Virus record (IMG/VR): IMGVR_UViG_3300008448_006895 | Location: 1-25,217 of that record | Reading direction: 5' to 3' (one strand) | DNA length: 25,217 bases | Source of the DNA: a virus | Part shown: positions 3,513 through 20,661 of the stretch, piece after piece | Numbering within the stretch: the stretch's first letter is position 1 | Layout of the letters: each line of letters starts with the position of its first letter | Made by a program: the position numbers and the translations under genes | Notes under the pieces: generated by a model | Told to the model about the DNA's origin: nothing | Databases searched by the model: none | The model's input: the letters and a program-made list of their open reading frames with translations, nothing else

Positions 3513-3914
3513 CTACAAATTTATTTCAAAACGATTTCTCATCGAGGTTAATGTTTCTTCGGGTACATTGTGTTTGTTAACACCTCCGTGTCTATTTTCC
3601 ACAACTATGGAAAAAACTTTATATTCAAAATATTCCGCCATTTCAAAATATGGTTTCATTTCCCATTCTTGAGTGAATGTGTTTGAAACAACAATTACAT
3701 TATTTAATAACGCAGTATGATTTAATAACATTGCAGTATAAACACTATCTTGACACCATTTATGGGCTTCTTTAATTTTAGATATATCAAATTTATATTC
3801 CCCATCTTTCATAAAAAACATATCAGTTTCAAAATGAGTACCACCTAAAGATTTAGCAAATGTGGATTTACCAGATCCCGGAATTCCACGAACTATATAC
3901 AATATTTTTTCCAT
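3513..3914 (-). CDS. P-loop kinase, polynucleotide 5'-kinase-like
   Basis: A 133-residue P-loop protein has Walker A GIPGSGKST at residues 10-18. An ETDMFF strand end at 29-34 fits the acidic substrate/metal position of polynucleotide kinase-type ATPases. It also has SNTFTQEWEM near 77-86 and the ending HNVPEETLTSMRNRFE, which matches the lid and C-terminal pattern of the PNK / N4BP2-like kinase group. It is shorter than T4 PNK and has no phosphatase domain. The likely reaction is ATP-dependent 5'-phosphorylation of a nucleic acid or small substrate. A near-perfect host-type TATCTTTG lies only 4 nt before the ATG, implying a leaderless early transcript. It is followed after 2 nt by the WC-domain gene. 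Confidence 0.88.
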   Translation of the reverse strand: MEKILYIVRGIPGSGKSTFAKSLGGTHFETDMFFMKDGEYKFDISKIKEAHKWCQDSVYTAMLLNHTALLNNVIVVSNTFTQEWEMKPYFEMAEYFEYKVFSIVVENRHGGVNKHNVPEETLTSMRNRFEINL

Positions 3915-3918
3915 ATCA

Positions 3919-3949
3919 CAAAGATATGAATTTTTTTTTCAATAAACAA
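3919..3949 (-). promoter_or_regulatory. Host-type promoter for the PNK-like kinase gene
   Basis: The minus strand has TATCTTTG at 3919-3926 with GTTG 20 nt upstream (TTG at 3947-3949), close to the Bacteroidota consensus. The -7 element ends 4 nt before the ATG, so the mRNA should be leaderless or nearly so. The -33 region abuts the plus-strand TATTTATT in front of the divergent sigma gene. Confidence 0.65.
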
Positions 3950-3950
3950 C

Positions 3951-3958
3951 TATTTATT
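3951..3958 (+). promoter_or_regulatory. TATTTATT motif before the sigma-factor gene
   Basis: TATTTATT is followed by GTT and then the ATG at 3962. The arrangement TATTTATTGTTAT also precedes the start at 14431. If it is a promoter element, the sigma gene could be autoregulated. Confidence 0.4.
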
Positions 3959-3961
3959 GTT

Positions 3962-4522
3962 ATGAAAATCATTTTAACTGAGTCACAATATGAACACTTA
4001 ATAAGTGAAGGATTTAATTTTGATCTTGAATATAAAAGGTTATACCCAAAAATATTTAGACAGATTTGTTTAAGATATGCAAACGGAGACAAAGAAAAAG
4101 CAAATGATTTTTGTCAATTAGGTTTTATAAAGGTTCACCAAAAAATGGGAATGTATGACGGTTCAGGTAGCCTTGAAGGTTGGATTCAACGTATTATAAA
4201 AAATACAATTATTGATGAATTAAGAAAAGAAAAAAGATCTCCAAAAAGAAAAGATGTTGATTTCGGTCGTGAAGATTTAGGTCTTGAGGATATGCCAAAT
4301 GAAGAACCTATGTTTTCTATGTCCGATATTAAAGATGCTATGGAAACTTTATCACCATCATATAAAAGAATTTTTAATATGTATTATTTTGAAGATATGT
4401 CTCACCAAGAAATTGCAGATGAATTAGGAATTAGCGATGGTACATCAAAATCAAATTTATTTAAAGCAAAAGCCAACGTTAAATCTTATTTGGAAAAGTT
4501 AAATAAAAAAAGGGAAGGTTAA
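3962..4522 (+). CDS. Phage-encoded sigma-70 family (ECF-like) sigma factor
   Basis: I chose the ATG at 3962 (186 residues). An upstream in-frame ATG at 3860 would overlap the divergent kinase gene and its promoter. Region 2 spans about residues 22-92 (DFCQLGFIKVHQKM, then GSLEGWIQRIIKNTIIDELR). A short linker leads to region 4 at about 121-180, with the helix-turn-helix MSHQEIADELGISDGTSKS. This two-domain layout without regions 1 or 3, and the wording of both regions, match Bacteroidota ECF-type sigma factors. The first residues MKIILTESQ are not part of any sigma domain and match the start of the HExxH protein at 1909. It likely redirects host RNA polymerase to phage promoters; the TATTTAT(A/T) elements in this window are candidates. 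Confidence 0.93.
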   Translation: MKIILTESQYEHLISEGFNFDLEYKRLYPKIFRQICLRYANGDKEKANDFCQLGFIKVHQKMGMYDGSGSLEGWIQRIIKNTIIDELRKEKRSPKRKDVDFGREDLGLEDMPNEEPMFSMSDIKDAMETLSPSYKRIFNMYYFEDMSHQEIADELGISDGTSKSNLFKAKANVKSYLEKLNKKREG

Positions 4523-4533
4523 CCCCTCCCTTT
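4509..4533 (-). terminator. Bidirectional terminator hairpin after the sigma gene
   Basis: AAAGGGA and TCCCTTT pair, extended by two G-C pairs after an A/C mismatch, around the loop TTAA. On the minus strand it is followed by seven T, a good intrinsic terminator for the 5809-4590 genes. On the plus strand the T run is only three. It overlaps the last codons and stop of the sigma gene. Confidence 0.75.
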
Positions 4534-4537
4534 AAAG

Positions 4538-4585
4538 GTCGACAATGAATTGTCCGACTCCACCACCTTGTTTTACTAAACAAGG
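4538..4585. other. Two further tandem hairpins in the convergent gap
   Basis: Positions 4538-4558 form a stem (GTC + GACAA with TTGTC + GAC, one bulged C). Positions 4566-4585 form a perfect 8-bp stem CCTTGTTT/AAACAAGG with loop TACT. With the preceding terminator they make three adjacent stem-loops. No long open frame explains them. Confidence 0.6.
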
Positions 4586-4589
4586 AAAA

Positions 4590-5069
4590 TTAACTAAAGT
4601 TTGTTGAATCCGATATTCTTAATCCATCCACACAACGTTCAGGTTTACTCCAATAAGTTCTACGTTCAGGATATTCCAAACTGTATGACTCAATATCATA
4701 ACCATCTTCCTTACCCCAAGAAAGAGCCATATCAATGAATTTTTCCTGATTCATCTCATTTCCGTATTCATCCACAATACGTCCTGATCTAATGAATTTA
4801 AATAGAGATTCTTTATCCTTAAAATACTTATCATCATTAAAATTCCAAAGGAACTTCCACCCCATACTACGTTTACCTAAATGAACCTTTACACTATCAC
4901 TAAACTCATCCCAAGGTGTCCAATCCTCAAATACTTCTGGGTTTTCTATCGCAAAATTACTATTAACCGATGATGGAGATAACTCCATTCGTCTAACTCT
5001 AGCCATAAGACGATTACGTCTTGTTTCTAACTCATTAACAGATGGTATTCTATAAAAATTTGTTCCCAT
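4590..5069 (-). CDS. Unknown phage protein, MGTNFYRIP family
   Basis: A 159-residue soluble protein. It starts MGTNFYRIP and contains HLGKRSMGWKFLWNFND near residues 63-79, ESLFKFIRSGRIVDEYG near 87-103 and FIDMALSWGK near 110-119. I recall proteins with this same order of segments from many phages of diverse bacteria, always without assigned function. No catalytic motif, signal peptide or membrane helix is visible. It is the last gene of the run that starts at 5809; two nt separate it from the lipoprotein gene, and it reads into the terminator at 4509-4533. An early accessory role is inferred from the host-type promoter of the run. Confidence 0.8.
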   Translation of the reverse strand: MGTNFYRIPSVNELETRRNRLMARVRRMELSPSSVNSNFAIENPEVFEDWTPWDEFSDSVKVHLGKRSMGWKFLWNFNDDKYFKDKESLFKFIRSGRIVDEYGNEMNQEKFIDMALSWGKEDGYDIESYSLEYPERRTYWSKPERCVDGLRISDSTNFS

Positions 5070-5071
5070 GT

Positions 5072-5521
5072 TTATAATCTTTCAATCCAAAGGTAGTAGT
5101 TCGGAGGATTAACCACACCTATTGAAATATCCGTAAATTTTCCTCCGATTATATATCCCATTTCTAAATTGACCTTATTCACATTACCAGTCAAATATCC
5201 AAAGATTGTGTAATTCAAAGTTAAAGAATATACAGTCCCGACTGAATTAAACCCATAGTTATATGGACCAATTGAATTATACTTATATACACTCTTTGTA
5301 ATAAACTTGATAGTGTCAGGTGGAAGCATTTCAGATGGTAATCCCATTTCACCAATACGATATTGTTTAATTACCCAAGTTTGTCCCGCCAAAGAATATG
5401 TACTATCCTGTGGATTTGGATTAGTGGGAACTGGTGGTTGATACACTCCTGGTTCAATTACTTGTTTCTCACAGGATATCATTCCTAACACTAATACTAA
5501 TAAAAAAAATATTCTTTTCAT
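5072..5521 (-). CDS. Phage-encoded lipoprotein
   Basis: The 149-residue product begins MKRIFFLLVLVLGMISC, a type II signal peptide: two basic residues, a hydrophobic core and a lipobox with the lipidated cysteine at C17. A proline-rich linker (PPVPTNPNPQ) follows, then a domain of beta-strand character starting SLAGQTWVIKQYR near residues 43-55, which resembles small lipocalin-like or META-type host lipoproteins only in general style. It lies 3 nt after the 94-residue gene and 2 nt before the MGTNFYRIP gene. Its location would be the periplasmic or outer-membrane face. Superinfection exclusion is a known job of phage lipoproteins, but here it is inference; a spanin-like role is less likely because no partner is seen. 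Confidence 0.85.
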   Translation of the reverse strand: MKRIFFLLVLVLGMISCEKQVIEPGVYQPPVPTNPNPQDSTYSLAGQTWVIKQYRIGEMGLPSEMLPPDTIKFITKSVYKYNSIGPYNYGFNSVGTVYSLTLNYTIFGYLTGNVNKVNLEMGYIIGGKFTDISIGVVNPPNYYLWIERL

Positions 5522-5524
5522 AAT

Positions 5525-5809
5525 TTATTTTGTTACTAACGATTCAATTTTACTTTTAATTTGTTCAGTCATTAAAATATCACTTTCGTTACTAATAATT
5601 ACCGAGTTAACTAATATTTTATTTGGGATGTGAACCAAAAATGTATTACCATTATAAAAACTTAAGTTATGACCCAATTCAATCGCCCCGTGAATCATCT
5701 TAACGAATAATTTGAATTGAATCTGATCCATAAACGTCTCATCAATCAGCACTCCCATATTCTCATTGATGACTTTTAACGTATATCCTGTAATTGTTGG
5801 CTTTGACAT
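5525..5809 (-). CDS. Unknown 94-residue phage protein
   Basis: The protein begins MSKPTITGYTLKVINENMG and is rich in alternating hydrophobic residues, suggesting an alpha/beta fold. There is no Cys cluster, membrane helix or known motif. It is the first gene behind the perfect host-type promoter at 5826-5856 and is followed after 3 nt by the lipoprotein gene, so it is probably expressed early by unmodified host polymerase. I do not recognise the family. Confidence 0.72.
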   Translation of the reverse strand: MSKPTITGYTLKVINENMGVLIDETFMDQIQFKLFVKMIHGAIELGHNLSFYNGNTFLVHIPNKILVNSVIISNESDILMTEQIKSKIESLVTK

Positions 5810-5825
5810 ATTCTATAATTTTAGA

Positions 5826-5856
5826 CAAAGATAGTAAACTATTTTAATATAACAAA
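5826..5856 (-). promoter_or_regulatory. Perfect Bacteroidota promoter (TTTG-19-TATCTTTG)
   Basis: The minus strand has TTTG at 5853-5856, exactly 19 nt, then TATCTTTG at 5826-5833, a full match to the Bacteroidota housekeeping consensus. The leader to the ATG at 5809 is about 12-16 nt. It should drive the 5809, 5521 and 5069 genes. Confidence 0.85.
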
Positions 5857-5859
5857 TTT

Positions 5860-6315
5860 TTATAATAGAAAATTATCTTCGTGTGTAAATCCTGATGAAT
5901 CAATTTGTGGTCCATTATCAATTAAAACTTCAACTTTTATTTCACCATCAATAAATCTTGAAACCGAACAAAACTCAATTTCAACATCTTCTTGAATACT
6001 TTGTTTAAGTTCATTATATTGATCCTCATTTTCTAATGATCCACATTGTGTTGCCGGTGAATGATAAACTTTTATTCTATATGAACCGTATGGATTTTCT
6101 AACGTATTGGTATCCCAAATTAAATTTTCAAAATCATAATTTTCAGAACCATCTTTAGTTAAAAATTTACCATCACTATCTCTTTTCCAAACCTGTGAAT
6201 GATGGAATCCACAATTATTACAGATCACATATTCTTCACCTGTTTTATAATAAAAATCAGAAAATGCCTCTTGTTTGCAATTTGGACATTCTAAATAATC
6301 AATTACGCTTCCCAT
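5860..6315 (-). CDS. Zinc-ribbon protein of unknown function
   Basis: A 151-residue protein has an N-terminal zinc ribbon: YLECPNC (C10, C13) and ICNNCG (C32, C35), spaced as in rubredoxin-like knuckles. The remainder is acidic, with an aromatic patch FENLIWDTN and a segment YGSYRIKVYHSPATQC near residues 76-91. The ribbon could contact nucleic acid or protein; nothing decides this. It begins 1 nt after the stop of the 6646 gene, so the two are co-transcribed. The promoter of the next run lies just past its stop. Similar ribbon proteins occur in phages, usually unnamed. Confidence 0.78.
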   Translation of the reverse strand: MGSVIDYLECPNCKQEAFSDFYYKTGEEYVICNNCGFHHSQVWKRDSDGKFLTKDGSENYDFENLIWDTNTLENPYGSYRIKVYHSPATQCGSLENEDQYNELKQSIQEDVEIEFCSVSRFIDGEIKVEVLIDNGPQIDSSGFTHEDNFLL

Positions 6316-6316
6316 A

Positions 6317-6646
6317 TTATTTTGTTATTATATATTTTTTACCTTGCTTTTCCAACTTACCAACATAGTCGTTTTTGTAATCAATTCCTGACCAAAAACC
6401 ACTACCATCACTCCAAAGACCACGTTTATTATTTTTATAAACTTCTTCACCAAATGTGATATAATCAGGTTGATCGTGATCAACCAAACAACTCGCTCTT
6501 GTCATTTCTCGTTTTTCTGTTGGTGTGTAATTACCAGACCAATCTTGTTTACATAAGAAAGTCGCTTCTCCAACAATAACTTCTTGTCCATCAAGAGTTG
6601 CCTTCTTATCTAATTTTTTCTTGTATGTGTATATGTAAGATCCCAT
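6317..6646 (-). CDS. Unknown 109-residue phage protein
   Basis: The product starts MGSYIYTYKKKLDKK. It has a mid segment TFLCKQDWSGNYTP and an aromatic, glycine-rich stretch RGLWSDGSGFWSGIDYKND near residues 75-93. It is soluble, with no recognised domain. It shares the MG(S/T) opening with the 6315 and 5069 products, which may reflect related small phage proteins or only a start-codon context. A strong terminator lies directly upstream (6661-6680) and I see no clear promoter in the 14 nt between, so expression probably depends on readthrough. Confidence 0.72.
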   Translation of the reverse strand: MGSYIYTYKKKLDKKATLDGQEVIVGEATFLCKQDWSGNYTPTEKREMTRASCLVDHDQPDYITFGEEVYKNNKRGLWSDGSGFWSGIDYKNDYVGKLEKQGKKYIITK

Positions 6647-6660
6647 ATTTAAAAATTTTA

Positions 6661-6680
6661 TCCCCCCAATTAAGGGGGGA
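6661..6680 (-). terminator. Intrinsic terminator after the 7146 gene
   Basis: Six C and six G separated by AATTAA, plus a closing T-A pair, form a very GC-rich stem in an AT-rich genome. On the minus strand it is followed by ATAAAATTTTT. It should end transcription of the 6688-7146 gene. Confidence 0.8.
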
Positions 6681-6687
6681 AGATTAA

Positions 6688-7146
6688 TTAATTTTGAGTA
6701 AACGCTTTATCAGCCCAAGTTTTTGCTCCCATTCGGGTCCAAATATTCATATCACACATATCAGGAAATGATTCTCTCATTGTTCCTACTGTCAACACAT
6801 CCAAAAATCCTTTGTCTATGGAATACCATTTACCACCTTTAGTTGTATAAACATTCATCCAATGACCAAACTCATTTTTCATTTGGATGTTAATCAATAC
6901 GTTTTTTTTATATCCACGAATAACACTAGAAGGTGTCCCTTTAGTGTCGTGAATATTAATAAAACCCGCTCTACATTTTCCCGCTATACGGAATTCATAT
7001 TCTTTATTAATATCTTTAAGGTGATTGGACACTTGGACCGTAGTTACCTTATTTTTAACGATTGTTTTAAAGGATCCATAGAATACGTCACCTGACATTG
7101 TTCCTTCATTAACTGAGATAATTGTGTTGGTTTTTGTAGTTGTCAT
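6688..7146 (-). CDS. Unknown 152-residue protein with its own promoter and terminator
   Basis: The protein begins MTTTKTNTIISVNEG. It contains strand-rich segments (GDVFYGSFKTIVKNKVTTVQVSN; FGHWMNVYTTKGGKWYS) and ends IWTRMGAKTWADKAF. There is no membrane helix or recognised catalytic motif. The gene is a single transcription unit: a perfect TTTG-19-TACCTTTG promoter upstream and a GC-rich hairpin downstream. That isolation suggests strong, early, independent expression from host polymerase, a pattern often seen for phage proteins that act on the host; this last step is inference. Family not recognised. Confidence 0.78.
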   Translation of the reverse strand: MTTTKTNTIISVNEGTMSGDVFYGSFKTIVKNKVTTVQVSNHLKDINKEYEFRIAGKCRAGFINIHDTKGTPSSVIRGYKKNVLINIQMKNEFGHWMNVYTTKGGKWYSIDKGFLDVLTVGTMRESFPDMCDMNIWTRMGAKTWADKAFTQN

Positions 7147-7172
7147 AACTGTTTATGTTTTTAATTACAATA

Positions 7173-7203
7173 CAAAGGTAATGCTTTTTTTTAAACTGCC
7201 AAA
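7173..7203 (-). promoter_or_regulatory. Perfect Bacteroidota promoter (TTTG-19-TACCTTTG)
   Basis: The minus strand has TTTG at 7200-7203, 19 nt, then TACCTTTG at 7173-7180, matching the host consensus exactly. The leader to the ATG at 7146 is about 20-25 nt. The -33 element follows closely behind the terminator of the Nudix gene. Confidence 0.85.
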
Positions 7204-7214
7204 CAAAAACAAAA

Positions 7215-7250
7215 AATCCCACAACTTTTTTTTAAAAAAATTATGGGATT
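7215..7250 (-). terminator. Intrinsic terminator downstream of the Nudix gene
   Basis: AATCCCA and TGGGATT pair around a T-run/A-run inner stem. On the minus strand the stem is followed by TTTTTTGTTTTTG, a typical U tract. It ends the Nudix transcript and insulates the next promoter. Confidence 0.75.
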
Positions 7251-7341
7251 ATGTTTTGATTAACCATTAAATAACTGAGAAGGGGGATTTTGGTTGTTTT
7301 TTGTATGATATAAATATATTATTGTTTACCAAAATTCAATT

Positions 7342-7761
7342 TTATTTTAAATTTTTTACAATAATTTTGTAAAATTCATCATTTTTTTTGTCTAAAGGTA
7401 AATTATCAATACTAAAATAACCACATTCACTATGTTCACCACCATCTTTGGCATTTTCTAAATCAGGATAGATCTCCTCATCAACCTCTAAAGAATATAC
7501 ATACATAAATCCTTTTAAATAGGTTCCATCTTTATTAAAACGATCAATAAACCCAACTAAATCTAAATTACCATTAACTTTAAGATTTGTTTCCTCATAA
7601 AACTCTCTACGAGCCGCCTCTTCAGGACTTTCCCCTTCTTCTATCCCTCCACCGGGTATTGACCAAACTCCAGGTAAAGTATTATCATTACTTCTTTTAC
7701 ATAACAATACCTTATCATTACATTTAACCAATATACCGGAAAATCTTTTGTTTTTCTTCAT
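7342..7761 (-). CDS. Nudix hydrolase (MutT-like)
   Basis: I chose the ATG at 7761 (139 residues): an upstream extension would run through the shared promoter and the divergent gene. The Nudix box spans about residues 38-60: GGIEEGESPEEAARREFYEE with its REFYEE core, so the metal-binding glutamates are present. The usual G near the end of the box is N59. Upstream, LLCKRSN and PGVWSIPGG are typical of the MutT/NUDT1 subgroup. The likely substrate is an (oxidised) nucleoside triphosphate or a nucleotide sugar. It diverges from the DUF192 gene with only 19 nt between starts. Confidence 0.92.
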   Translation of the reverse strand: MKKNKRFSGILVKCNDKVLLCKRSNDNTLPGVWSIPGGGIEEGESPEEAARREFYEETNLKVNGNLDLVGFIDRFNKDGTYLKGFMYVYSLEVDEEIYPDLENAKDGGEHSECGYFSIDNLPLDKKNDEFYKIIVKNLK

Positions 7762-7768
7762 ACCTTCT

Positions 7769-7782
7769 ATATTTATAAATAT
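7769..7782. promoter_or_regulatory. 14-nt palindrome shared by divergent Nudix and DUF192 genes
   Basis: ATATTTATAAATAT is a perfect palindrome covering the whole space between the two divergent starts. It presents TATTTATA in both directions, 3 nt before the plus-strand ATG and 12 nt before the minus-strand ATG. It probably serves both genes as promoter or operator. Confidence 0.5.
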
Positions 7783-8137
7783 GGAAATAATAATAAACAA
7801 TAATCTCTTTAATGTCAAATCTGCAATTACAGATAAAGACATTCAAGAAGGAATGAAAGGTAAAAAATTTGACGATACTTTTAACGGAATGTTATTCATA
7901 ATGAACGAAGGGTACCATTCCTTTTGGATGAAGGATTGTTTAATCTCTTTGGATATCATTTATATATCAGACGGTAAAATTCAAAAAATTTACAGTGACT
8001 GTCCTCCATGTAGGGAACAAGACGATACGAAATGTCCCCACTATGAAGGTGTTGGTGATATGATCTTAGAGATCAATGGTGGTGATTGTATTAAATACGA
8101 TATCACCGAAGGAGATTCAATTTTGATTAAAGAGTGA
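7781..8137 (+). CDS. DUF192 (UPF0127) family protein
   Basis: I chose the ATG at 7781 (118 residues); the upstream in-frame ATG lies inside the divergent Nudix gene. Family signatures are clear: FNGMLFIMNEG near 34-44, HSFWMKDCLISLDIIYIS at 46-63, CPPC at 74-77, CPHY at 85-88, GDMILEINGGDC near 92-103 and EGDSI near 110-114. The known family fold is a small beta-barrel of unknown function, usually exported in bacteria with a signal peptide. Here no signal peptide is present, so this copy is cytoplasmic or virion bound. It ends inside the convergent methyltransferase gene (21-nt overlap). Confidence 0.88.
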   Translation: MEIIINNNLFNVKSAITDKDIQEGMKGKKFDDTFNGMLFIMNEGYHSFWMKDCLISLDIIYISDGKIQKIYSDCPPCREQDDTKCPHYEGVGDMILEINGGDCIKYDITEGDSILIKE

Positions 8138-8962
8138 TTTTTGTTCAACAAAAGGTTTAACTCTATCTTCCGCAATTTTCATATAATTAGGACTTAATTC
8201 AATACCTAACCATCTACGATTTAATATCTCCGCAGCAACTAATGTGGTTCCAGATCCTGCAAATGGATCTAATACTACATCGTTTTTGTAGGATAATATC
8301 TTAATTGCCTTCGTTGGTATATCCATTGAGAAGGTCGCCTTGGTGAGTGATTTTGTATCTGCAAAATAATTCCACTGACCAAAAACAAGCTCCATAAATT
8401 CTTTCTTATCCGTCTCCTCATAAACTACTTTTTTCTTTGAACTACCATCCTCTTGTTCAACATCTGTTGGTACTCCAACCCATTGTGGTTCTCCTTTTAT
8501 TTTTTTGATGTGCTGTTTTTTATAAGCCAAAATGACACATTCCTTAGGGTTGTAAATGTAAGGGCTTGATGGACTCATCCAAGATCCCCATGCTGTTGTT
8601 TTACTCCTGTGTGGAGAATCTTCTTCAAGATCCACAATACCAAAAAATCCGTAACCAATTTCTTTCATAATTTGCCACATCTCAGAAACAAAAAATATTC
8701 GACCACCTTTCTTTTGTCTATTAATTTCATAAGGAATATTCAAAGCAATTCTTCCATCATCTTTTAATAATCTATATGATTCAGTTAACCAATTTTTTGC
8801 GAACTCAATATATTCGTCAAATTCCACATCATCTTCGTGAACGTCATAATCAATACCAACACCATAGGGTGGTGATGTTACAATTAAATCTACTGTTCCT
8901 TCGGGTAGTGTTTTCATTATTTCAACACAATCACCATTTAAAATTTTTCCTGTTTCAATCAT
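8117..8962 (-). CDS. DNA methyltransferase, beta class (N4-cytosine or N6-adenine)
   Basis: A 281-residue enzyme has the catalytic motif IV TSPPYG at 29-34 before the AdoMet-binding motif I LDPFAGSGTT at 231-240, so it belongs to the beta class. NGDCVEIMKTLPEG at 9-22 and LGIELSPNYMKIAEDR near the C-terminus are typical flanking segments. SPPY rather than DPPY points somewhat to N4-cytosine or to CcrM-like adenine enzymes; the sequence alone does not settle it. No restriction endonuclease is nearby, so it is probably an orphan enzyme that protects or marks phage DNA. It starts 15 nt after the small TM gene and is the last gene of the long minus-strand run. Confidence 0.93.
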   Translation of the reverse strand: MIETGKILNGDCVEIMKTLPEGTVDLIVTSPPYGVGIDYDVHEDDVEFDEYIEFAKNWLTESYRLLKDDGRIALNIPYEINRQKKGGRIFFVSEMWQIMKEIGYGFFGIVDLEEDSPHRSKTTAWGSWMSPSSPYIYNPKECVILAYKKQHIKKIKGEPQWVGVPTDVEQEDGSSKKKVVYEETDKKEFMELVFGQWNYFADTKSLTKATFSMDIPTKAIKILSYKNDVVLDPFAGSGTTLVAAEILNRRWLGIELSPNYMKIAEDRVKPFVEQKSLFNQN

Positions 8963-8977
8963 TTTTTTTTGTTTTTT

Positions 8978-9115
8978 TTATAATAATAGTAAATAAATAA
9001 TTAAAAGTCCAGTAGTAATAATTGAAATCCCTATCATAGCCATTCCAAATACTTTATTATTACGATCAACCTGCTCTTTAGATCTTCCTTGCCATTCATT
9101 TCTGTCCCATTTCAT
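8978..9115 (-). CDS. 45-residue single-TM mini-protein
   Basis: A short open frame begins MKWDRNEWQGRSKEQV, a charged head with two Trp, followed by one hydrophobic helix from about residue 22 to the end (KVFGMAMIGISIITTGLLII). The layout fits an inner-membrane protein with its N-terminus in the cytoplasm, by the positive-inside rule. Its start lies inside the end of the RmlB-like gene (20-nt overlap), so translation is coupled. Function unknown. Confidence 0.7.
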   Translation of the reverse strand: MKWDRNEWQGRSKEQVDRNNKVFGMAMIGISIITTGLLIIYLLLL

Positions 9116-10357: not shown

Positions 10358-10634
10358 TTTGTTTTTCTAACATTTCAATATGGTGTTCTAAATACCATAA
10401 TGCTTTTTTTAAATCCTGTAACTCTTTGTCCGAATCTTTTTTACCCGCTCTTGAGATATACTTTACTGTATTTCCCAAACTAAATCCTAAATTCCAAGCG
10501 TCAATAACCTTGATGGCTTCATAAGGATTATTTACTCCACCATAATGTAGTGGATGATTAACTTGTTCTACTTTTATTGGGGGACACTTACAATCGCCAG
10601 TACCCCCACATAAACATACTTTTATATTATCCAT
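10350..10634 (-). CDS. DUF3310 family protein
   Basis: Ninety-four residues; the core VNHPLHYGGVNNPYEAIKVI near 25-44, then AWNLGFSLGNTVKYISRAGK near 46-65 and KKALWYLEHHIE near 76-87, is a textbook DUF3310 domain, a very common phage family that includes T7 gp1.7, a nucleotide kinase. The N-terminal extension carries four cysteines (CLCGGTGDCKC, C7, C9, C15, C17), which may bind a metal and are not part of the usual domain. It shares one base with the end of the glutamine synthetase gene. A role in nucleotide metabolism is inferred from the family. Confidence 0.92.
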   Translation of the reverse strand: MDNIKVCLCGGTGDCKCPPIKVEQVNHPLHYGGVNNPYEAIKVIDAWNLGFSLGNTVKYISRAGKKDSDKELQDLKKALWYLEHHIEMLEKQNG

Positions 10635-11758
10635 TATTCTTCTTCTCTATATACGTTTAATAATTCGTCTCTTGATATAGTATTGTATTTACCACTTAAT
10701 CCATCCATATCAACAAATTTAGTCATCATAATTTTTGTTTCATAAATCTGTTTTGTAACATCAAGAGATTTAACAATCTCACGAATAATTTTATATGGAT
10801 CCGCATTTGATCCCGGTCTACGGTCTTCAATGTAGCCTTTCCATTCTTTTGCCGTATCTTGTGGTACACGAATTGATGCTCCACGATCTGACACACCCCA
10901 ACTGAATTTATCAATTGCCTGTGTTTCGTATTCACCAGTTAGACGTAAATTATTATTAGACCCATACGCTTTGATGTGATCTTGATGTCTTGATTCAAAT
11001 GCATTAAATAAAGCCATAAAATATTTTTCATTTCCATCATTTCTCATAGTATCGGTTGAGAAATTAGTGTGAAGTCCAGATCCATTCCACTCACCGTGTG
11101 TTAATGGTTTAGGGTGTAATTCAATATGATAACCATATTTTTCTGCCATTTTGAATAAGAAATAACGAGTCATCCAAAGATCGTCACCACCTTTTAATTT
11201 TCCTTTTGAAAAAACTTGATATTCCCATTGTCCTAAAGCAACCTCAGCATTAGTACCGGTAATATCAATCCCATAATTTAGACACATATCTAAGTGTGAT
11301 TCAACAAAATCACGACCAACAACATTATGTCCTACACCACAATAATATTCTCCCTGTCCTTTAAGGATGTTTCTTTTATGACCTAAAATGTTTCCGTTAA
11401 TCTCTTCACGTATGAAGTATTCTTGTTCAAACCCAAACCAAAGATCTTCAAAGTTATCACCAATCTGAGATCTTTTATTTGATTCATGTGGGGTCCCATC
11501 AGGATTTAATACTTCACATAATACATATACAGTATCATTTACGAATGGGAACCCATGTGTTGTATACTGTCTAACAGGTTTTAAAAGACGATCTGAATTT
11601 CCTGTTTCCGCTTGAGAAGTGGATGATCCATCAAAATTCCATACCGGAATATTATTTAATTCCATAGGAACTTCACTTTCAACAATTTTAACTTTACTTC
11701 TAAGGTTTGGCTCCGGTCTATATCCATCAAGCCAAACATATTCTAATTTAATTTTCAT
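10634..11758 (-). CDS. glnA: Glutamine synthetase, type II (GSII)
   Basis: This 374-residue enzyme would make glutamine from glutamate, ammonia and ATP. The beta-grasp part has LEYVWLDGYRPEPNLRSK and VWNFDGSSTSQAE (39-51). The catalytic part has WFGFEQEYF (E111, E113), GQGEYYCGVG (134-143), NAEVALGQWEYQ (E172, E179), NGSGLHTNFS (H230), RLTGEYETQ (E278), WGVSDRGASIRVP (R297) and EDRRPGSNADPY (E311). These match the flavobacterial/eukaryotic GSII type, and all metal and ATP site residues I can identify are kept. One oddity is RLTGEYET where cellular enzymes have RLTG-x-HET. The length is about 35 residues above many bacterial GSII. It sits mid-operon, coupled to the 60-residue gene (ATGA overlap) and to DUF3310. 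Confidence 0.95.
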   Translation of the reverse strand: MKIKLEYVWLDGYRPEPNLRSKVKIVESEVPMELNNIPVWNFDGSSTSQAETGNSDRLLKPVRQYTTHGFPFVNDTVYVLCEVLNPDGTPHESNKRSQIGDNFEDLWFGFEQEYFIREEINGNILGHKRNILKGQGEYYCGVGHNVVGRDFVESHLDMCLNYGIDITGTNAEVALGQWEYQVFSKGKLKGGDDLWMTRYFLFKMAEKYGYHIELHPKPLTHGEWNGSGLHTNFSTDTMRNDGNEKYFMALFNAFESRHQDHIKAYGSNNNLRLTGEYETQAIDKFSWGVSDRGASIRVPQDTAKEWKGYIEDRRPGSNADPYKIIREIVKSLDVTKQIYETKIMMTKFVDMDGLSGKYNTISRDELLNVYREEE

Positions 11759-12076: not shown

Positions 12077-12077
12077 A

Positions 12078-12860: not shown

Positions 12861-12901
12861 CACACATAAACATAATAATATTTTTCTATTCTGTAAAGAT
12901 A

Positions 12902-14431: not shown

Positions 14432-14436
14432 ATAAC

Positions 14437-14492
14437 AATAAATATTCAATTCTTTACAAATATAATAATCTTTAGATATTTATAGATAAATA
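14437..14492. promoter_or_regulatory. Divergent TATTTAT(A/T) motifs between the 14431 and 14515 genes
   Basis: On the minus strand TATTTATT (14437-14444) ends 5 nt before the ATG at 14431. On the plus strand TATTTATAGATAAATA (14477-14492) is a near-palindrome with TATTTATA 30 nt before the ATG at 14515. Together they form a divergent control region. Confidence 0.45.
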
Positions 14493-14514
14493 AACCTAAT
14501 AAAAACAAATTACC

Positions 14515-14649: not shown

Positions 14650-14670
14650 TAGGTGTTATGCGAATTGTTG

Positions 14671-14700
14671 AGGTGGAGAATTATTTTTCCACCTTTTTTT
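14671..14700 (+). terminator. Intrinsic terminator after the MGCGC gene
   Basis: AGGTGGA and TCCACCT form a stem extended by GAA/TTT around the loop TTAT, followed by seven T. Classic plus-strand terminator. Confidence 0.85.
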
Positions 14701-14701
14701 A

Positions 14702-14709
14702 TATTTATT
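14702..14709 (+). promoter_or_regulatory. TATTTATT motif before the 14718 gene
   Basis: TATTTATT directly follows the terminator T run and lies 8 nt before the ATG at 14718, supporting an independent start of transcription there. Confidence 0.4.
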
Positions 14710-14717
14710 AGTTAGAT

Positions 14718-15800: not shown

Positions 15801-15816
15801 GTAAAAATACCTTAAC

Positions 15817-15824
15817 TATTTATA
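15817..15824 (+). promoter_or_regulatory. TATTTATA motif upstream of the 15862 gene
   Basis: TATTTATA lies in the only intergenic gap before the 15862 gene, 37 nt from its ATG, which leaves room for a short leader. Confidence 0.4.
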
Positions 15825-15861
15825 TATTCATTTAAAATCCATATCAATTGTAAAAAAAGAT

Positions 15862-16557
15862 ATGAGATTAATTAATAAAAATTCAAAAAGAGGCATTGTT
15901 AATCTATTTGCCGATTTCATTTTATCTAAGATTGATAAAAATGAAAATTCAATTATACAAGTTTCAGATGTTGGTTCTTTTTATGTAATTAATGGAATTA
16001 CAACGAGTGAAACATTTTTAGATATAAATTCAATAAGAGATGAATTTACCGAAAAATTCCAAGATATATTAACGTCATTGGAGATTAAATCACTTAACGT
16101 TATCGATATTATCAAATACAATCAAGAAATTGGAAATATTGAGAAGGGATGGATTAAAGTTAATAAAATTCCTTTTATTGAGGAACCTGAACCTTTAAGT
16201 GAGATTTCAATTAATTCTGAATTCCCATATGGTCATAGTTTAAACTGCGGTAGATTAATGGTTTATTACACCCACTATATGTTTAATCAAGTTTATAGTA
16301 CAATAATGACCAATGAAGTTCATTTTTTCTTCACCAAAAAAATTGATTCTAATGAAGATTTTAAAATTAAAGTAGTAACAGATAAAGGACTACATAAAGA
16401 TATTATCAAATCACTTATCTTAGACGTATTTAACTTCGATTTGGAAGAGTTTTCATCCAAAGTGGTAAGTTATGACTTAACTCAAGATATATTAGATCCT
16501 ATGGGAGAAAAACCATATTTAATACAAGATAGATTGGAAGACGTAATTGTCTTCTAA
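15862..16557 (+). CDS. Unknown 231-residue phage protein
   Basis: The product starts MRLINKNSKRGIVNLFADFI. It is alpha/beta in character, with several Ile/Lys-rich strands and a segment FPYGHSLNCGRLMVYYTHYM near residues 119-138. No known domain is seen. Its last codons and stop lie in a 16-bp inverted repeat that separates it from the convergent glutaredoxin gene by only 1 nt. It is probably expressed with the same timing as the 14718 gene, judged by strand and motif. Function unknown. Confidence 0.78.
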   Translation: MRLINKNSKRGIVNLFADFILSKIDKNENSIIQVSDVGSFYVINGITTSETFLDINSIRDEFTEKFQDILTSLEIKSLNVIDIIKYNQEIGNIEKGWIKVNKIPFIEEPEPLSEISINSEFPYGHSLNCGRLMVYYTHYMFNQVYSTIMTNEVHFFFTKKIDSNEDFKIKVVTDKGLHKDIIKSLILDVFNFDLEEFSSKVVSYDLTQDILDPMGEKPYLIQDRLEDVIVF

Positions 16558-16564
16558 TCTATCT
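16527..16564. terminator. 16-bp bidirectional hairpin between convergent genes
   Basis: AGATAGATTGGAAGAC pairs with GTCTTCTAATCTATCT (15 Watson-Crick pairs and one G-T) around the loop GTAATT. The stem overlaps the last codons of the plus-strand 16557 gene and the end of the minus-strand glutaredoxin gene. The plus strand continues TTT; the minus strand has only a weak T run. Probably a bidirectional terminator. Confidence 0.7.
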
Positions 16565-16843
16565 TTTAAAAAATTCTTTAATTATTTTAGCGCCTTGTTC
16601 AATATCTTCAAAATCTCGGTCAGGAGCAAACAATTTAGTCACAGGATTATCTTCAGGTGATTCAATTAACATAAATGCCGGAACAAATTCATTTTCTGTT
16701 ACCTCAACAAATAAGTTATACTCTTCTTCATATTCGTGAATATCACGATCCACGTATTCAATACCCTCTTTGTCTAACATTTCTTTTAACATATGACAAA
16801 AAGGGCATTGTTTCATCGTAAAAAGAACCGCAACCTTATCCAT
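16559..16843 (-). CDS. Glutaredoxin-like protein
   Basis: Ninety-four residues; strand-turn-helix FTMKQCPFCHMLKEML with the redox pair C13-P-F-C16, the usual glutaredoxin active site being CPYC/CPFC. Residues 51-60 (ENEFVPAFML) supply the cis-proline turn after a valine. It then departs from the standard glutaredoxin ending, having an acidic loop (ESPEDNPVTKLFAPDRDFED) before a final helix. It likely reduces disulphides with glutathione or another thiol and may serve a ribonucleotide reductase. Its start overlaps the thioredoxin stop by 8 nt, so both come from one message. Confidence 0.88.
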   Translation of the reverse strand: MDKVAVLFTMKQCPFCHMLKEMLDKEGIEYVDRDIHEYEEEYNLFVEVTENEFVPAFMLIESPEDNPVTKLFAPDRDFEDIEQGAKIIKEFFKR

Positions 16844-17150
16844 TGATTAATTCGGTTAACATATCTTTTAATTGACCTTCGTTAAGTACCCCAACTTTTG
16901 TATCAATAACTTCACCAGAATTAATCACTTTAATCGTTGGTATACTTCTAATACCTAATGACGCTCCAACTTCTCTATTTAAATCTACATTCATTGTATA
17001 CATCTTAACATCAGATGTATTTTCATTTGATATTCTTTCAAATATTGGTTTCATCATTCTACATGGTCCACACCATTCAGCCCAAAATTCAACAATTAAT
17101 TTTTCACCATTGTTAATTTTTTCTTTTAATTCTACACTTGTAATTTCCAT
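16836..17150 (-). CDS. trxA: Thioredoxin
   Basis: A 104-residue protein with the full thioredoxin layout: LIVEFWAEWCGPCRMMKP with active site W26-C27-G28-P29-C30. The later LGIRSIPTIKVI carries the cis-proline near residue 75. The length is that of bacterial thioredoxin 1. In phages thioredoxin commonly supplies electrons to ribonucleotide reductase or, as in T7, acts as a polymerase processivity factor using the host copy. Here the phage brings its own copy, coupled to a glutaredoxin. The 25 nt before the start are almost pure A/T with no Shine-Dalgarno sequence. Confidence 0.95.
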   Translation of the reverse strand: MEITSVELKEKINNGEKLIVEFWAEWCGPCRMMKPIFERISNENTSDVKMYTMNVDLNREVGASLGIRSIPTIKVINSGEVIDTKVGVLNEGQLKDMLTELING

Positions 17151-17175
17151 TTTTTTATTTTTTTATTTTATATGA

Positions 17176-17520
17176 TCAATGACCACTGTTCAACTTTGAT
17201 AAATTTTTTATAAAGAATTTAACTTCATCATATTGATCCACATCGTAATAAACTTTCACATTATAATTTAGTTCAGATAAATCAATCTTAGATAAATATA
17301 AGTAAAACCCGGATCTATGTTTAAAAATTCCTTCGGTATGTTTTATTTCCCCACCATATTCCTCACCTTTAAGATATTCTATCAAAAAGTTTTTATGTAT
17401 TAAAACGTCTGGTGTTAAATTTAAAGGACTATTAATTTTTAAAACACCATATAATTTTTGATGTCTATCTTTAAGGATATCCAAAAAGTTATTTTCGTTT
17501 AAAAAATATTTATCTTCCAT
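17176..17520 (-). CDS. Unknown 114-residue phage protein
   Basis: The protein begins MEDKYFLNENNFLDILKDR. It has alternating hydrophobic strands (SGFYLYLSKIDLSELNYNVKV region, near 70-92) suggesting an alpha/beta fold. No cysteine pair or known motif. It starts 12 nt after the strong terminator of the DUF932 gene and is followed 25 nt later by thioredoxin, with which it may be co-transcribed. Function unknown. Confidence 0.72.
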   Translation of the reverse strand: MEDKYFLNENNFLDILKDRHQKLYGVLKINSPLNLTPDVLIHKNFLIEYLKGEEYGGEIKHTEGIFKHRSGFYLYLSKIDLSELNYNVKVYYDVDQYDEVKFFIKNLSKLNSGH

Positions 17521-17524
17521 AATT

Positions 17525-17548
17525 TAAAAAAAGGGGTCCGTAGACCCC
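17525..17548 (-). terminator. Intrinsic terminator of the DUF932 gene
   Basis: On the minus strand GGGGTC, loop TACG, GACCCC, then seven T. The C(TACG)G loop is one of the most stable tetraloop types. It lies 8 nt past the DUF932 stop. Confidence 0.88.
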
Positions 17549-17555
17549 GTAGTAG

Positions 17556-18311
17556 TTATAACATTGATTCTGCGGTTTCCCAAAGTTTTGTGTTAACATA
17601 ATTCAAACTTGATATGTTTTTCAAACTTCTCAAGCTTGACTTGCGACCAGTTTTTGTTTTATACTCAATACCTCCTCGGACAAATTTTTCCTGAACCATG
17701 TTGAATGTAGACCAAAGGTCGTCACCAGAGTCCTCATGTCTTAAAGGTGTTAAAATTTCTTCGATGTTTAACTCCGCAGGAACAGAACCAATAGCCCATC
17801 TAAACTTAGAAGATTTCTCAACAAAATCAATCTTTTCGTCAATTGTTAATTTTCTTTCCATCATTCTACCAACAGAATGTTCAATCTTAGGTAATTTCTT
17901 ACTAAAACTTTCAGTTAGTTCTTTTACCTCATCTAAGGTAAATGCCTTATGACGAATATTAAATCTTTCAGATACAGACGTAGGAACAACAAGACCATTA
18001 CTACAAACTAGTCGGTAAAGACCAGCACCTAAAGAAAAACCTGAAGTACCATTGTGTGAGTTACGAACAATCGCCTCAACTAAAGTATCACCAACCGCAG
18101 GTAATTGTTTGTTACGAAACTTAACCTCGTGTAACGCATGAATACCTTTACCCGTTTGATGTGCTGAGGAAACATCCCAACCTTCTCTCAAAAAATATTC
18201 AATTACCTGATCCGTAGGTACGAATGAATATTTGTTAGTCAACTTACTTGAAGGTTCCGTTGCAAACACCGATGGTGCCACTTTTTTAATTAATTCTGGT
18301 GTGTAAATCAT
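17556..18311 (-). CDS. DUF932 domain protein
   Basis: A 251-residue protein with the pattern of the DUF932 phage/plasmid family: KYSFVPTDQVIEYFLREGWD near 27-46, HALHEVKF near 58-65, RNSHNGTSGFSLGAGLYRLV near 82-101 and CSNGLVVPT near 102-110. The helical C-terminal half is also usual. The function of the family is unknown; members occur in phages, plasmids and ICEs and are often expressed early. This copy is a stand-alone unit with a near-perfect host promoter and a strong terminator, which supports early expression by unmodified host polymerase. The start ATG at 18311 gives the family's normal N-terminus. Confidence 0.88.
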   Translation of the reverse strand: MIYTPELIKKVAPSVFATEPSSKLTNKYSFVPTDQVIEYFLREGWDVSSAHQTGKGIHALHEVKFRNKQLPAVGDTLVEAIVRNSHNGTSGFSLGAGLYRLVCSNGLVVPTSVSERFNIRHKAFTLDEVKELTESFSKKLPKIEHSVGRMMERKLTIDEKIDFVEKSSKFRWAIGSVPAELNIEEILTPLRHEDSGDDLWSTFNMVQEKFVRGGIEYKTKTGRKSSLRSLKNISSLNYVNTKLWETAESML

Positions 18312-18334
18312 AAGTATAAAATTTAATTATACCA

Positions 18335-18364
18335 CAAAGATAACACTTTTTTTATAAACCACAA
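18335..18364 (-). promoter_or_regulatory. Bacteroidota promoter for DUF932 (TTG-19-TATCTTTG)
   Basis: The minus strand has TATCTTTG at 18335-18342 with TTG (18362-18364) exactly 19 nt upstream. The leader to the ATG at 18311 is about 18-22 nt. Confidence 0.82.
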
Positions 18365-18381
18365 TAATTTTTTGATTTTTT

Positions 18382-18678
18382 TTAATTTAAAAATATATCA
18401 CCGAATTTTGTTTTCATTATATGTTGTTCAATTTTTTCTATTGATGCCAACTTTTCAAATAATTCAGGTGCCTTTAACTCTAAAACAATATCTAATATTT
18501 GTTGTTTTGTTAAAATATAATCTTCCCCCTTTTCCACATTTTCCAATGATTTTTCTTTCATCTTTTGGTAGAACAAATCTTTTTGTGCTGTACCCACTAA
18601 ATCCATAAAATCACCGGGGTTATTTTCAAAAAAAGTTATCATTTGTCTTATGTATACTTCAACATCTATATTTTTCAT
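18382..18678 (-). CDS. Unknown 98-residue protein
   Basis: The protein starts MKNIDVEVYIRQMITFFENN and ends KTKFGDIFLN. The middle DLFYQKMKEKSLENVEKGED and the LTKQQILDIVLEL helix give an all-helical profile. I recall near-identical opening and closing segments (VEVYIRQMITFFENNP; KTKFGEIFLN) from unknown proteins of other environmental phages, so it is probably a conserved phage protein. No enzyme motif. It starts 10 nt after the stop of the 649-residue gene and may be co-transcribed with it. Confidence 0.78.
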   Translation of the reverse strand: MKNIDVEVYIRQMITFFENNPGDFMDLVGTAQKDLFYQKMKEKSLENVEKGEDYILTKQQILDIVLELKAPELFEKLASIEKIEQHIMKTKFGDIFLN

Positions 18679-18688
18679 ATTTTATATT

Positions 18689-20638
18689 TTAGAATTTCCC
18701 TAATCCAGTACAGTGTTGTTTCATATCTTCAGGGAAATGAATAAACCAAAAATCCTCATCAGGTGTCATATATTCTTCTAATTTTTTAGGTATCTTGATA
18801 TTAGGATTTGATCCCATAATTGAAAAGAATTCTAAACAAGTTAATTTAGAAATAGATTCAGGTAACTTATCTAACTCAGGGTTGTTTGTTAAATTTAAAA
18901 ATGATAATTGTCTACAGTTTCCAATACTTTCAGGTATCGACTTAACCATATTATCAATTACCAAAGTTGTAAGTTCAGTAAATTTTCCAATACTTTCGGG
19001 TAGATCCATTGCGATGACATCATTTGATTTATTTTCCATATTAATGAATTCAACATTATCAGGAATTGAATCAAAATATTCCTCAAAACCAAATAGTGCA
19101 ATGTATTTAGATGCATCATCTTTAGGATATTCCAATTGAACAAATGTTCCTGTATCCTTAGATGTTAACTCTTGAGCGTATTTTCTTTTAAGTTGTCTGA
19201 AATACGGTCTCATTTCTTTGGTTTTAATTGTCTCAATATCGCTTGAAGTTAACTGACTTAATGTTTTTGTAAGTAATTTTTCTTTTTTCTTTGAAACATA
19301 ATAAGACATAGCCCCATCTTTAAGGACCTTAACCATTCCACCATTTAACTCAGTTCCTAAACCAATATATTTCTTTTGTAGTTCTTCAGGTAAATTAGCA
19401 AATATTTCAACACCGTTACTCATGTTAGTGAAATCGGGACCTCTTAATTCCATCCATAATTCAACTTCTTCAACACTACCTAACTCTTGTATCGGATCGT
19501 TAGTTCTTAGGTTATAAGATTTATATCTCTGCATTTTTTCTTGATCCTCATTACTAAATGGTTTTGGTTCAAGATATTCTTTTTTACCTTGTAATGCCGG
19601 AACCTTTCTAGTAATTTCGTCCCAATCAATTTCTGTAGCTCCGGCATATCTACCTGAATTGGTACCATCCGCCAATCTCATTCCTCCCCATCTATCAACA
19701 AGGACAACAACAGCATAATTAACATCTGATTCAGGTAAATTCTTACTAATAACATAATATAATGTTAAGTTTTGATTTAATCTATAATTGTAGTAGTAAT
19801 TACTTGATCCTTCCCAAGATGTACACCATCTTCTATCTGGAGCGTGTTTTTTTCTAATATTAATACATTGTTGTTTTTCATCAGGAGCAAAAATTAATAT
19901 GTTATCATCTTCATATGCAATATCAACGTCATCTAAATCAATATCAGGTAAACTATATTCATCTTCACCCATTGGTGTGTAACCATCAACCAAATGCTCA
20001 AACTCATCAAATGTCATAAACGCAGTTAATTTAGCATTTAATGGAATTGATTCGAAGTGTCTCACAAATCTTTTAACCCTAGGAAGAATAACTGTTAATG
20101 GATCATCATCAGGATTATCCTTCATAAATTTTTCTGTCATTCTTTTTGTTAATTCATTCTCACCATTGTCATCAAATCTACCAAAAAATCTATTAACTAA
20201 ATCATTTAATTGAGATGGGTTTAAATCGGTAACATCTCTTTTGAATAACTTTTGATCGGGGAATAATGTTTTTAACTCAAAATATTTTTTAATATTTGTT
20301 TTAACTAATTGTAAGTCAACACCTTTGTGTTTAGTCACAAATTCTTGTGCAATACTCTCAAGATCTTTTTTGGTTTTTTGCTTTGTGGATTTATCCGCAA
20401 CAAGTTGCTTTACTTTTTCATAACTATGTTTGAATATATCTTTATCTTCATTATCAAATGCCGCTTTAAATCTTTCAAAATCAGATATTGTTTTCTTGAT
20501 TTCATCCTCAGTATCATCAGTTTCTTTAGTAAACTTATCCAATAATTTCTTTACTGTGGATTCAGGATACTCCAATAATATTTTTTTAATATTTACGTTT
20601 TCTTTAACGACTTTTGATAAAATTCCAACTAATTCCAT
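18689..20638 (-). CDS. WC-domain protein with C-terminal leucine-rich repeats
   Basis: A 649-residue multi-part protein. Residues 1-230 are helical and charged, with several Lys/Asp-rich segments. About 240-335 holds the WC domain: NILIFAPDEKQQCINI, then DRRWCTSWEGSSNYYYN (268-284), LTLYYVIS (291-298), NYAVVVLVD (307-315). This corresponds to the domain at 121-190 of the 3510 product. Residues about 540-630 are at least three LRR units of the type LPESIG-x-x-TELTTL, IPESIG-x-x-RQLSFLNL and LPESIS-x-LTCLEFF, which in other proteins form curved binding surfaces. A TATTTATA element lies 15 nt before the start. Function unknown; a binding or effector role is inference. Confidence 0.85.
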   Translation of the reverse strand: MELVGILSKVVKENVNIKKILLEYPESTVKKLLDKFTKETDDTEDEIKKTISDFERFKAAFDNEDKDIFKHSYEKVKQLVADKSTKQKTKKDLESIAQEFVTKHKGVDLQLVKTNIKKYFELKTLFPDQKLFKRDVTDLNPSQLNDLVNRFFGRFDDNGENELTKRMTEKFMKDNPDDDPLTVILPRVKRFVRHFESIPLNAKLTAFMTFDEFEHLVDGYTPMGEDEYSLPDIDLDDVDIAYEDDNILIFAPDEKQQCINIRKKHAPDRRWCTSWEGSSNYYYNYRLNQNLTLYYVISKNLPESDVNYAVVVLVDRWGGMRLADGTNSGRYAGATEIDWDEITRKVPALQGKKEYLEPKPFSNEDQEKMQRYKSYNLRTNDPIQELGSVEEVELWMELRGPDFTNMSNGVEIFANLPEELQKKYIGLGTELNGGMVKVLKDGAMSYYVSKKKEKLLTKTLSQLTSSDIETIKTKEMRPYFRQLKRKYAQELTSKDTGTFVQLEYPKDDASKYIALFGFEEYFDSIPDNVEFINMENKSNDVIAMDLPESIGKFTELTTLVIDNMVKSIPESIGNCRQLSFLNLTNNPELDKLPESISKLTCLEFFSIMGSNPNIKIPKKLEEYMTPDEDFWFIHFPEDMKQHCTGLGKF

Positions 20639-20653
20639 ATTGACTTTTTTTAA

Positions 20654-20661
20654 TATAAATA
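20654..20661 (-). promoter_or_regulatory. TATTTATA motif before the WC/LRR gene
   Basis: On the minus strand TATTTATA lies 15 nt before the ATG at 20638, in the only gap between this gene and the Dam-type gene. Confidence 0.4.

Follow-up and report, generated by a model that had tools for sequence, protein, structure and literature searches.

Two classes of promoter-like sequence precede the genes of the window, by which we mean the whole 25,217-base virus record IMGVR_UViG_3300008448_006895: a host-like TAnnTTTG box with TTG or TTTG 19 or 20 nt upstream, and a phage-own TATTTATW box found before virion genes. The second behaves as a promoter element of the -10 box type, and on sequence grounds we consider it likely that it is the -10 box of late promoters in a T4-related lineage of jumbo phages of Bacteroidota, read by a gp55-type sigma factor. 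The division into two classes, put forward in an original prediction made from the letters of the window, was borne out by enrichment, geometry, mutual exclusion, conservation and gene functions. As far as box, spacing and distance to the start can tell, the TAnnTTTG set is an ordinary Bacteroidota promoter.

The window was compared with related records. G001 (72 kb) is the same phage, with 100% identity across 20.8 kb of the window, and G005 (75 kb) and G008 (26 kb) are related to it at 87% and at 70% over 4 kb aligned, respectively. Three larger relatives, G009 (296 kb), G010 (291 kb) and G012 (160 kb), were reached via an RpoD-like sigma gene. Apart from some rearrangements, G009 and G010 are circularly permuted relative to each other, as judged from 183 reciprocal best hits (order taken from every sixth), and therefore both are probably near-complete genomes. 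Gene starts, whose coordinates serve here as gene names, came from a simple gene caller. The calls of the relatives were left uncorrected; in the window, five genes (3914, 3962, 7761, 7781 and 14515) were introduced or given another start manually, in part on the lead of the original prediction. This gave a test of 26 regions, which was repeated on the 24 regions of the uncorrected calls. The region counts leave out the boxes of 7761 and 22741, each of which overlaps a neighbouring start. A non-redundant set was formed by removing every stretch of the window or of G005 with an alignment to G001, as well as the duplicates G002, G003, G004, G006 and G007. All tested contigs are mutually related and hence not independent.

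Enrichment and mutual exclusion of the two motifs

Over the whole window, neither motif was enriched, with 19 occurrences of TATTTATW against 17.9 expected and 44 of TAnnTTTG against 43.4. The expected overall count is what one would see if TATTTAT were a chance product of AT-rich DNA, an explanation whose probability we rate as negligible, since in all seven related contigs the excess depends on strand and position, and the place of the motif is conserved. In sense upstream regions of the window, TATTTATW was present in 10 of 26 (2.1 expected, standard deviation 1.3) and TAnnTTTG in 8 of 26 (1.7 expected), values reached by none of 200 dinucleotide shuffles; the antisense counts were 5 and 4, respectively. 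With uncorrected gene calls, the figures were 7/24 against 1.8 and 8/24 against 1.7 (0/200 shuffles each). The same excess of TATTTAT was observed in G009 (108/214 upstream regions against 17.9), G010 (101/193 against 14.3), G012 (39/83 against 6.7), G001 (20/49 against 3.9) and G005 (14/49 against 3.8), again with 0/200 shuffles in every case, and for TATTTATW no shuffle out of 200 reached the count in any of the seven related contigs. Thus, the enrichment over shuffled sequence that the prediction had implied was indeed found in sense upstream regions.

When 7-mers were ranked in the sense intergenic sequence of the non-redundant set, TATTTAT came first (45 against 14.1), followed by TCTTTGT, which is part of TATCTTTG. 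It also ranked first in G009, G012, G001 and G005 and fourth in G008, and in G010 it was second, behind a word from a tRNA array. This array holds 22 tRNA genes (L147:1915-8107, corresponding to G010 221,915-228,107).

The claim that the two sets do not overlap was nearly right in the window, where 1 of 24 regions of at least 25 nt, that of gene 14431, proved to have both motifs. In G010, 3 regions carried both, 89 only TATTTAT, 27 only TAnnTTTG and 56 neither (exclusion p=1.4e-7); the corresponding numbers in G009 were 7, 92, 23 and 70 (p=0.0012). The window, G001, G005 and G012 displayed the same trend at non-significant levels (p 0.15 to 0.24).

Architecture and conservation of the two boxes

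Among 281 TATTTAT sites in G009, G010 and G012, the distance to the start is 3-5 nt at 76, 11-16 nt at 93 and less than 3 nt at 4; the distances span 3 to more than 100 nt. A -35 partner was sought over these 281 sites and not found. All three distance classes show a weak AT-rich patch at 13-16 nt upstream of the box, which indicates that the patch is tied to the box rather than to the ATG. Sequence just downstream of the box is AT-rich as well, and in the 11-16 nt class an A-rich run (84-96% A) follows the box by 4-6 nt. In F. johnsoniae, many -7 boxes are placed 4-5 nt from the transcript start, according to the part of PMC6847099 covered here; by that geometry, transcripts from TATTTAT would begin at or near the A of the ATG, or in the A-rich run after the box. 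A pattern with a fixed spacing of 6 nt before the ATG was also tried and yielded nothing, because box-to-ATG distances vary.

In G010, the box precedes 59 of 125 tandem genes whose upstream gap is at least 25 nt, compared with 5 of 135 where it is below 15 nt, and it is found before 30 of 52 divergent genes. These numbers bear on another interpretation, namely that TATTTAT is no promoter but serves in Bacteroidota-type mRNAs as a translation-start or leader signal. Its closeness to start codons, together with hosts that lack Shine-Dalgarno sequences (PMC6847099, in the part covered), would suit such a signal. Nevertheless, we find this hardly credible, since the motif is rare before within-operon genes, which also need translation, its distance to the start varies widely, and the host promoter box is excluded where it occurs. 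Between G009 and G010 orthologues, the box is present in both members of 45 pairs and in neither member of 23, with 18 discordant (p=4e-7), and its place is kept within 2 nt in 30 of the 45.

Regarding the host class, TTG stands at a spacing of 19 or 20 in 40 of 86 TAnnTTTG sites from six records, with 0-4 sites at each of the other spacings between 14 and 29, and the distance to the start peaks at 4 nt (23/86 sites). Box, spacing of 19-20 and distance all match the Bacteroidota sigma-ABfr promoter (TTTG/TAnnTTTG), from which nothing notable differs.

Genes behind each class

The functions of large G010 proteins, hand-picked rather than random, were compared. In a first group of ten, nine have the box, comprising the tail sheath, the neck (head-tail) adaptor, the large terminase, the head protease, DnaB and four without a match; the tenth is the portal protein, whose gene lacks it. 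Ten host-class proteins included no virion protein; they were an RNA ligase, a peptidase, four families of unknown function and four without a match. With four virion families behind the box and none in the host class, the box favours virion genes, DnaB excepted.

Candidate sigma factors for TATTTAT

The window itself encodes a sigma factor of the extracytoplasmic function (ECF) type:

3962 to 4522, plus strand: ECF-like sigma factor, regions 2 and 4 (Pfam Sigma70_r2 and r4_2, phrog_1740)

The original prediction held that this protein reads TATTTAT and that its own gene carries the motif. The latter is correct, with a box at 3 nt from the start, likewise in G005 and G008, and an ECF-like sigma that drives its own gene would fit this position. 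As the reader of the motif, however, it is very unlikely: it has no match in G009, G010 and G011, and the first two give the strongest TATTTAT signal. Overall, a search of 24 related records, many of them fragments and all chosen among those with the RpoD-like sigma, found it in 3. The late box ahead of the gene rather suggests that the ECF-like sigma is a client of the second class.

A search with PF04542 (sigma region 2) returned only the RpoD-like sigma in G010 and G011, and in G009 an additional weak match. This match is a gp55-like open frame of 268 codons, to which 468 relatives were found in viral contigs. Of these, 80 loci were retained, 43 of which were aligned together with the G009 sequence (44 sequences). 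Each of the 44 has a match to phrog_234 (late sigma transcription factor) with E up to 10, the best being 1.1e-4, and a profile-profile comparison with eight annotated gp55 proteins gave E 9e-5 with a probability of 59.5. The gp55-like and RpoD-like genes are both present in G009, G010, G011 and G033. At 41 loci, the 90 nt upstream of the gp55-like gene resemble, by eye, coding sequence of the preceding gene, so that the gp55-like gene seems to be inside an operon; TATTTAT occurs upstream in 6 of these 41 loci, within apparent codons of that preceding gene. The RNA polymerase beta subunit PF00562, which would mark a multisubunit phage RNA polymerase, had no match in any of 10 records. As no phage RNA polymerase was found, the host core must be used.

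The arrangement is like that of the T4 late promoter, which has a TATA box at -10, AT-rich sequence downstream and nothing at -35 (PMC2988020, in the part covered). Here too, an AT box at -10 with AT-rich downstream sequence and no -35 element precedes head and tail genes, the host core is used and a sigma with a remote likeness to gp55 is encoded. Our pipeline recovered the T4 box TATAAATA from 50 kb of T4. Because the T4 plan fits and the pipeline recovers TATAAATA, the gp55-like protein is favoured over the RpoD-like one.

The second candidate is the RpoD-like phage sigma itself (G005:49890-50690), which has regions 1.2, 2 and 4; in viral contigs, 341 relatives were confirmed and 80 of them retained. 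That the boxes are late promoters read by this protein is a minority possibility, and we regard it as unlikely. It is well conserved and present in G009, G010, G011 and G033; in G005 its gene lies 4 nt behind a host-class gene (50694-51185, box at 25 nt), which fits a regulator made early; and the AT-rich motifs near -18 and -28 that accompany a weak -33 element in Bacteroidota promoters (PMC6847099, in the part covered) resemble the patch described above. Nevertheless, a sigma factor with region 4 should prefer a -35 box, and none is seen, while a gp55-like sigma acting on T4-type late genes is a precedent that fits the architecture.

Several observations weigh against late promoters read by a gp55-type sigma. 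Firstly, the enrichment is not uniform, as in G008 TATTTAT was found in 5 of 28 regions against 1.6, a count that 4 of 200 shuffles reach (0/200 for TATTTATW); antisense TATTTAT also exceeds shuffles (47/214 in G009), though below sense, an excess that may be explained by divergent regions; and the relatedness of the contigs limits all enrichment tests. Secondly, a late box precedes the DnaB helicase gene but not the portal gene of G010. Thirdly, the homology to gp55 is remote: the profile reached T4 gp55 in the PDB only at E 0.46, and although the modelled protein (pLDDT 75) can be superposed on sigma region 2, where T4 gp55 (7d7c_F) shares first place (Z 10.5, 132 residues), helical models can reach such Z by common arrangement alone, the rmsd to gp55 is 5.5, other sigmas score equally, and in Foldseek the hit has E 1.5 and rank 40. 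Moreover, the gp55-like gene had no match in G001 or G005 and is not on the window record. The gp45 clamp, which in T4 serves late promoters together with gp55 and gp33, was found neither with PF02916 (0/9 records) nor, over the cut-off, with PF09116 in 6 records, searches that divergent clamps may escape. Finally, the box differs from that of T4, TATAAATA there and TATTTATA/T on the sense strand here, and in the 50 kb of T4 TATTTAT also scores, with 8 sense and 6 antisense sites. TATTTATA is the reverse complement of TATAAATA, which itself occurs 2 times sense and 18 times antisense in tandem gaps of the non-redundant set. The distances also differ, with 12 of 13 T4 sites at 14-28 nt from the ATG and peaks at 3-5 and 11-16 nt here.

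On balance, we infer that the boxes mark transcription start sites, that the two classes differ in timing and that the reader is the gp55-like sigma, not the RpoD-like one. Early genes would be transcribed by host RNA polymerase with its own sigma from TTTG-19/20-TAnnTTTG. Later, the gp55-type phage sigma would direct the same host core to TATTTATW boxes without a -35 partner, with transcription starting approximately 4-5 nt after the box, and many late mRNAs would consequently begin at the ATG or a few nt before it. The ECF-like sigma of the window would be a client of this late system and not its driver.

Relation to known phages

The window carries a glutamine synthetase gene (10634-11758) and a DnaJ gene (21761-22690), and G001 a DnaK gene. 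In the part of PMC12619734 covered, moraphages are described as aquatic, with mostly Bacteroidota hosts (predicted), genomes of up to 307 kb and T4-type virion genes, and as carrying glutamine synthetase, DnaK, DnaJ and a core sigma factor but no RNA polymerase; by this gene content the window and its relatives fit the group. The same part of that text mentions neither a promoter motif nor gp55.

Two further phages were inspected. In the first 100 kb (of 160 kb) of Flavobacterium phage immuto, TATTTAT precedes some genes, but the leading motif is TATTTAGGTATC-like. A long repeated upstream motif of this phage, approximately AATTAAATATTTAGGTATCAA and assembled from overlapping 7-mers (L236, L237), is unlike both classes. 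In one 50 kb stretch of Microcystis phage Mel-JY01 there was no strong TATTTAT signal (tenth 7-mer, 8 sites); this phage is one of two with a gp55-like match (E 1e-5).

Literature searches returned no paper linking TATTTATA with promoter and phage, and among those for TATTTAT with promoter and phage words none was on phage promoters by its title. With these motifs, many genes could be assigned to an early-like or late-like class from upstream sequence, a readable code for a widespread aquatic jumbo-phage lineage that, to our knowledge, is known from metagenomes only. The combination of a T4-like plan for late promoters and a new box sequence would also make the co-evolution of box and late sigma testable.

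N-terminal tags and the ECF-like sigma factor

The ECF-like sigma of the window begins with MKIILTESQYEHLISEG, and its G012 homologue with MKLVLSENQYRVLLFES. The G008 protein starts with MKIIISESQYSRL followed by a long extension, its region 2 match beginning at residue 187 rather than 26. The tag (MKII.TESQ type) is kept in all three (window 3962-4013, G012:136740-137291 and G008:16851-17864), and the stretch from tag to region 2 differs greatly, by about 155 residues in G008. Similar N-termini (MKIIITESQ, KxxRLTESDLTRIVKRVIKE, IRRILREE) are found on dozens of otherwise different proteins in G009 and G010. In these two genomes, tag patterns, which were written after N-termini of the lineage had been seen, matched 59 of 681 N-termini and 16 of 2380 internal Met controls, and a late box lies within 60 nt of 38/59 tagged compared with 176/622 untagged genes (p=8e-8). 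A literature search found no paper with LTESDLTRIV.

Internal proteins of T4 bear targeting peptides of approximately 10-20 residues that are cut off by the head protease (PMC7411985, in the part covered). The present tags are alike in being short N-terminal peptides on many late-class genes in a lineage with a T4-type head protease: Peptidase_S77 (T4-type prohead protease) was found in 5 of 9 records, including G009, G010 and G033, and had no match in four, which are shorter or, in the case of G011, 274 kb. They differ from the capsid-targeting sequences of that source in that one carrier is a sigma factor. The likeness of the tag to T4 targeting peptides, together with the head protease, makes a packaged and injected sigma factor possible. 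We tentatively propose that the ECF-like sigma may be made late from its TATTTAT promoter, packaged via its tag (MKII[IL]TESQ type) and injected to programme the host RNA polymerase of the next infection, beside a T4-type late system with its box changed to TATTTATA.

If so, the sigma factor of the window would be a packaged regulator. Virion packaging of phage RNA polymerases is a known strategy; we know of no such case for a sigma factor, and a literature search for a packaged one found no paper.

Putative promoter sites in the window

All TATTTATW sites named in the original prediction are present in the sense orientation, with their distances to the ATG recomputed below. Those before 8962 and 22741 were absent from its list.

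1913 to 1920, minus strand: late box TATTTATT, 3 nt before start 1909 (tagged protein MKIIITESQ...)
3951 to 3958, plus strand: late box TATTTATT, 3 nt before the ECF-like sigma gene 3962
7770 to 7777, plus strand: late box TATTTATA, 3 nt before 7781 (DUF192 gene), overlapping the opposite-strand box
7774 to 7781, minus strand: late box TATTTATA, 12 nt before 7761 (NUDIX gene)
8992 to 8999, minus strand: possible late box TATTTATT, 29 nt before 8962 (DNA methylase gene)
14437 to 14444, minus strand: late box TATTTATT, 5 nt before 14431
14477 to 14484, plus strand: late box TATTTATA, 30 nt before the small open reading frame 14515
14702 to 14709, plus strand: late box TATTTATT, 8 nt before 14718
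15817 to 15824, plus strand: late box TATTTATA, 37 nt before 15862
20654 to 20661, minus strand: late box TATTTATA, 15 nt before 20638
21550 to 21557, plus strand: late box TATTTATA, first of a pair, 39 nt before 21597
21571 to 21578, plus strand: late box TATTTATT, second of the pair, 18 nt before 21597
22690 to 22697, plus strand: late box TATTTATT, 43 nt before 22741

The four host-class promoters that had been predicted (3914, 5809, 7146 and 18311) are likewise present, with TTG or TTTG at 20, 19, 19 and 19 nt, respectively:

3919 to 3926, minus strand: host-class -7 box TATCTTTG, 4 nt before 3914, with TTG at 3947-3949, 20 nt away
5826 to 5833, minus strand: host-class box TATCTTTG before 5809, TTTG 19 nt upstream
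7173 to 7180, minus strand: host-class box TACCTTTG before 7146, TTTG 19 nt upstream
18335 to 18342, minus strand: host-class box TATCTTTG before 18311 (DUF932 gene), TTG 19 nt upstream

The eight TAnnTTTG regions counted in the window are these four plus those of 578, 14431, 22690 and 24568; the site of 14431, TATATTTG (14457-14464), shares its region with a late box.

Many of the late boxes are conserved in the relatives. The box of 1909 has orthologous sites in G008 (15745, minus strand, 3 nt) and G010 (130482, 5 nt), and that of the sigma gene 3962 is at the equal place in G005 and G008, with a box within 60 nt in the G012 homologue. In the window, the box of 3962 faces the host-class promoter of 3914 on the opposite strand, whose TTG ends 1 nt from it; this arrangement is kept in G008, and G005 retains the late box together with a degenerate host box. 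The boxes of 14431 and 14718 are conserved in G005, G008 and G010, that of 20638 in G005 and G010, and both boxes before 21597 in G005. In G010 a small gene (118755) likewise has its box at 30 nt, as 14515 does. The box of 22741 overlaps the start of the opposite-strand DnaJ gene and is conserved in G005 at 44 nt. The box of 15862 is weaker, as G005 has TATTTAGA in its place.

The NUDIX and DUF192 genes (window 7342-8137) diverge from an overlapping palindromic pair of late boxes, a pair also kept in G008 (19239/19243) and in G010 (before 126398 and 126764). Terminator-like hairpins directly precede two late boxes, at 14670-14695 (box of 14718) and at 1954-1922 (box of 1909), and where boxes adjoin such hairpins one transcript may end where the next begins.

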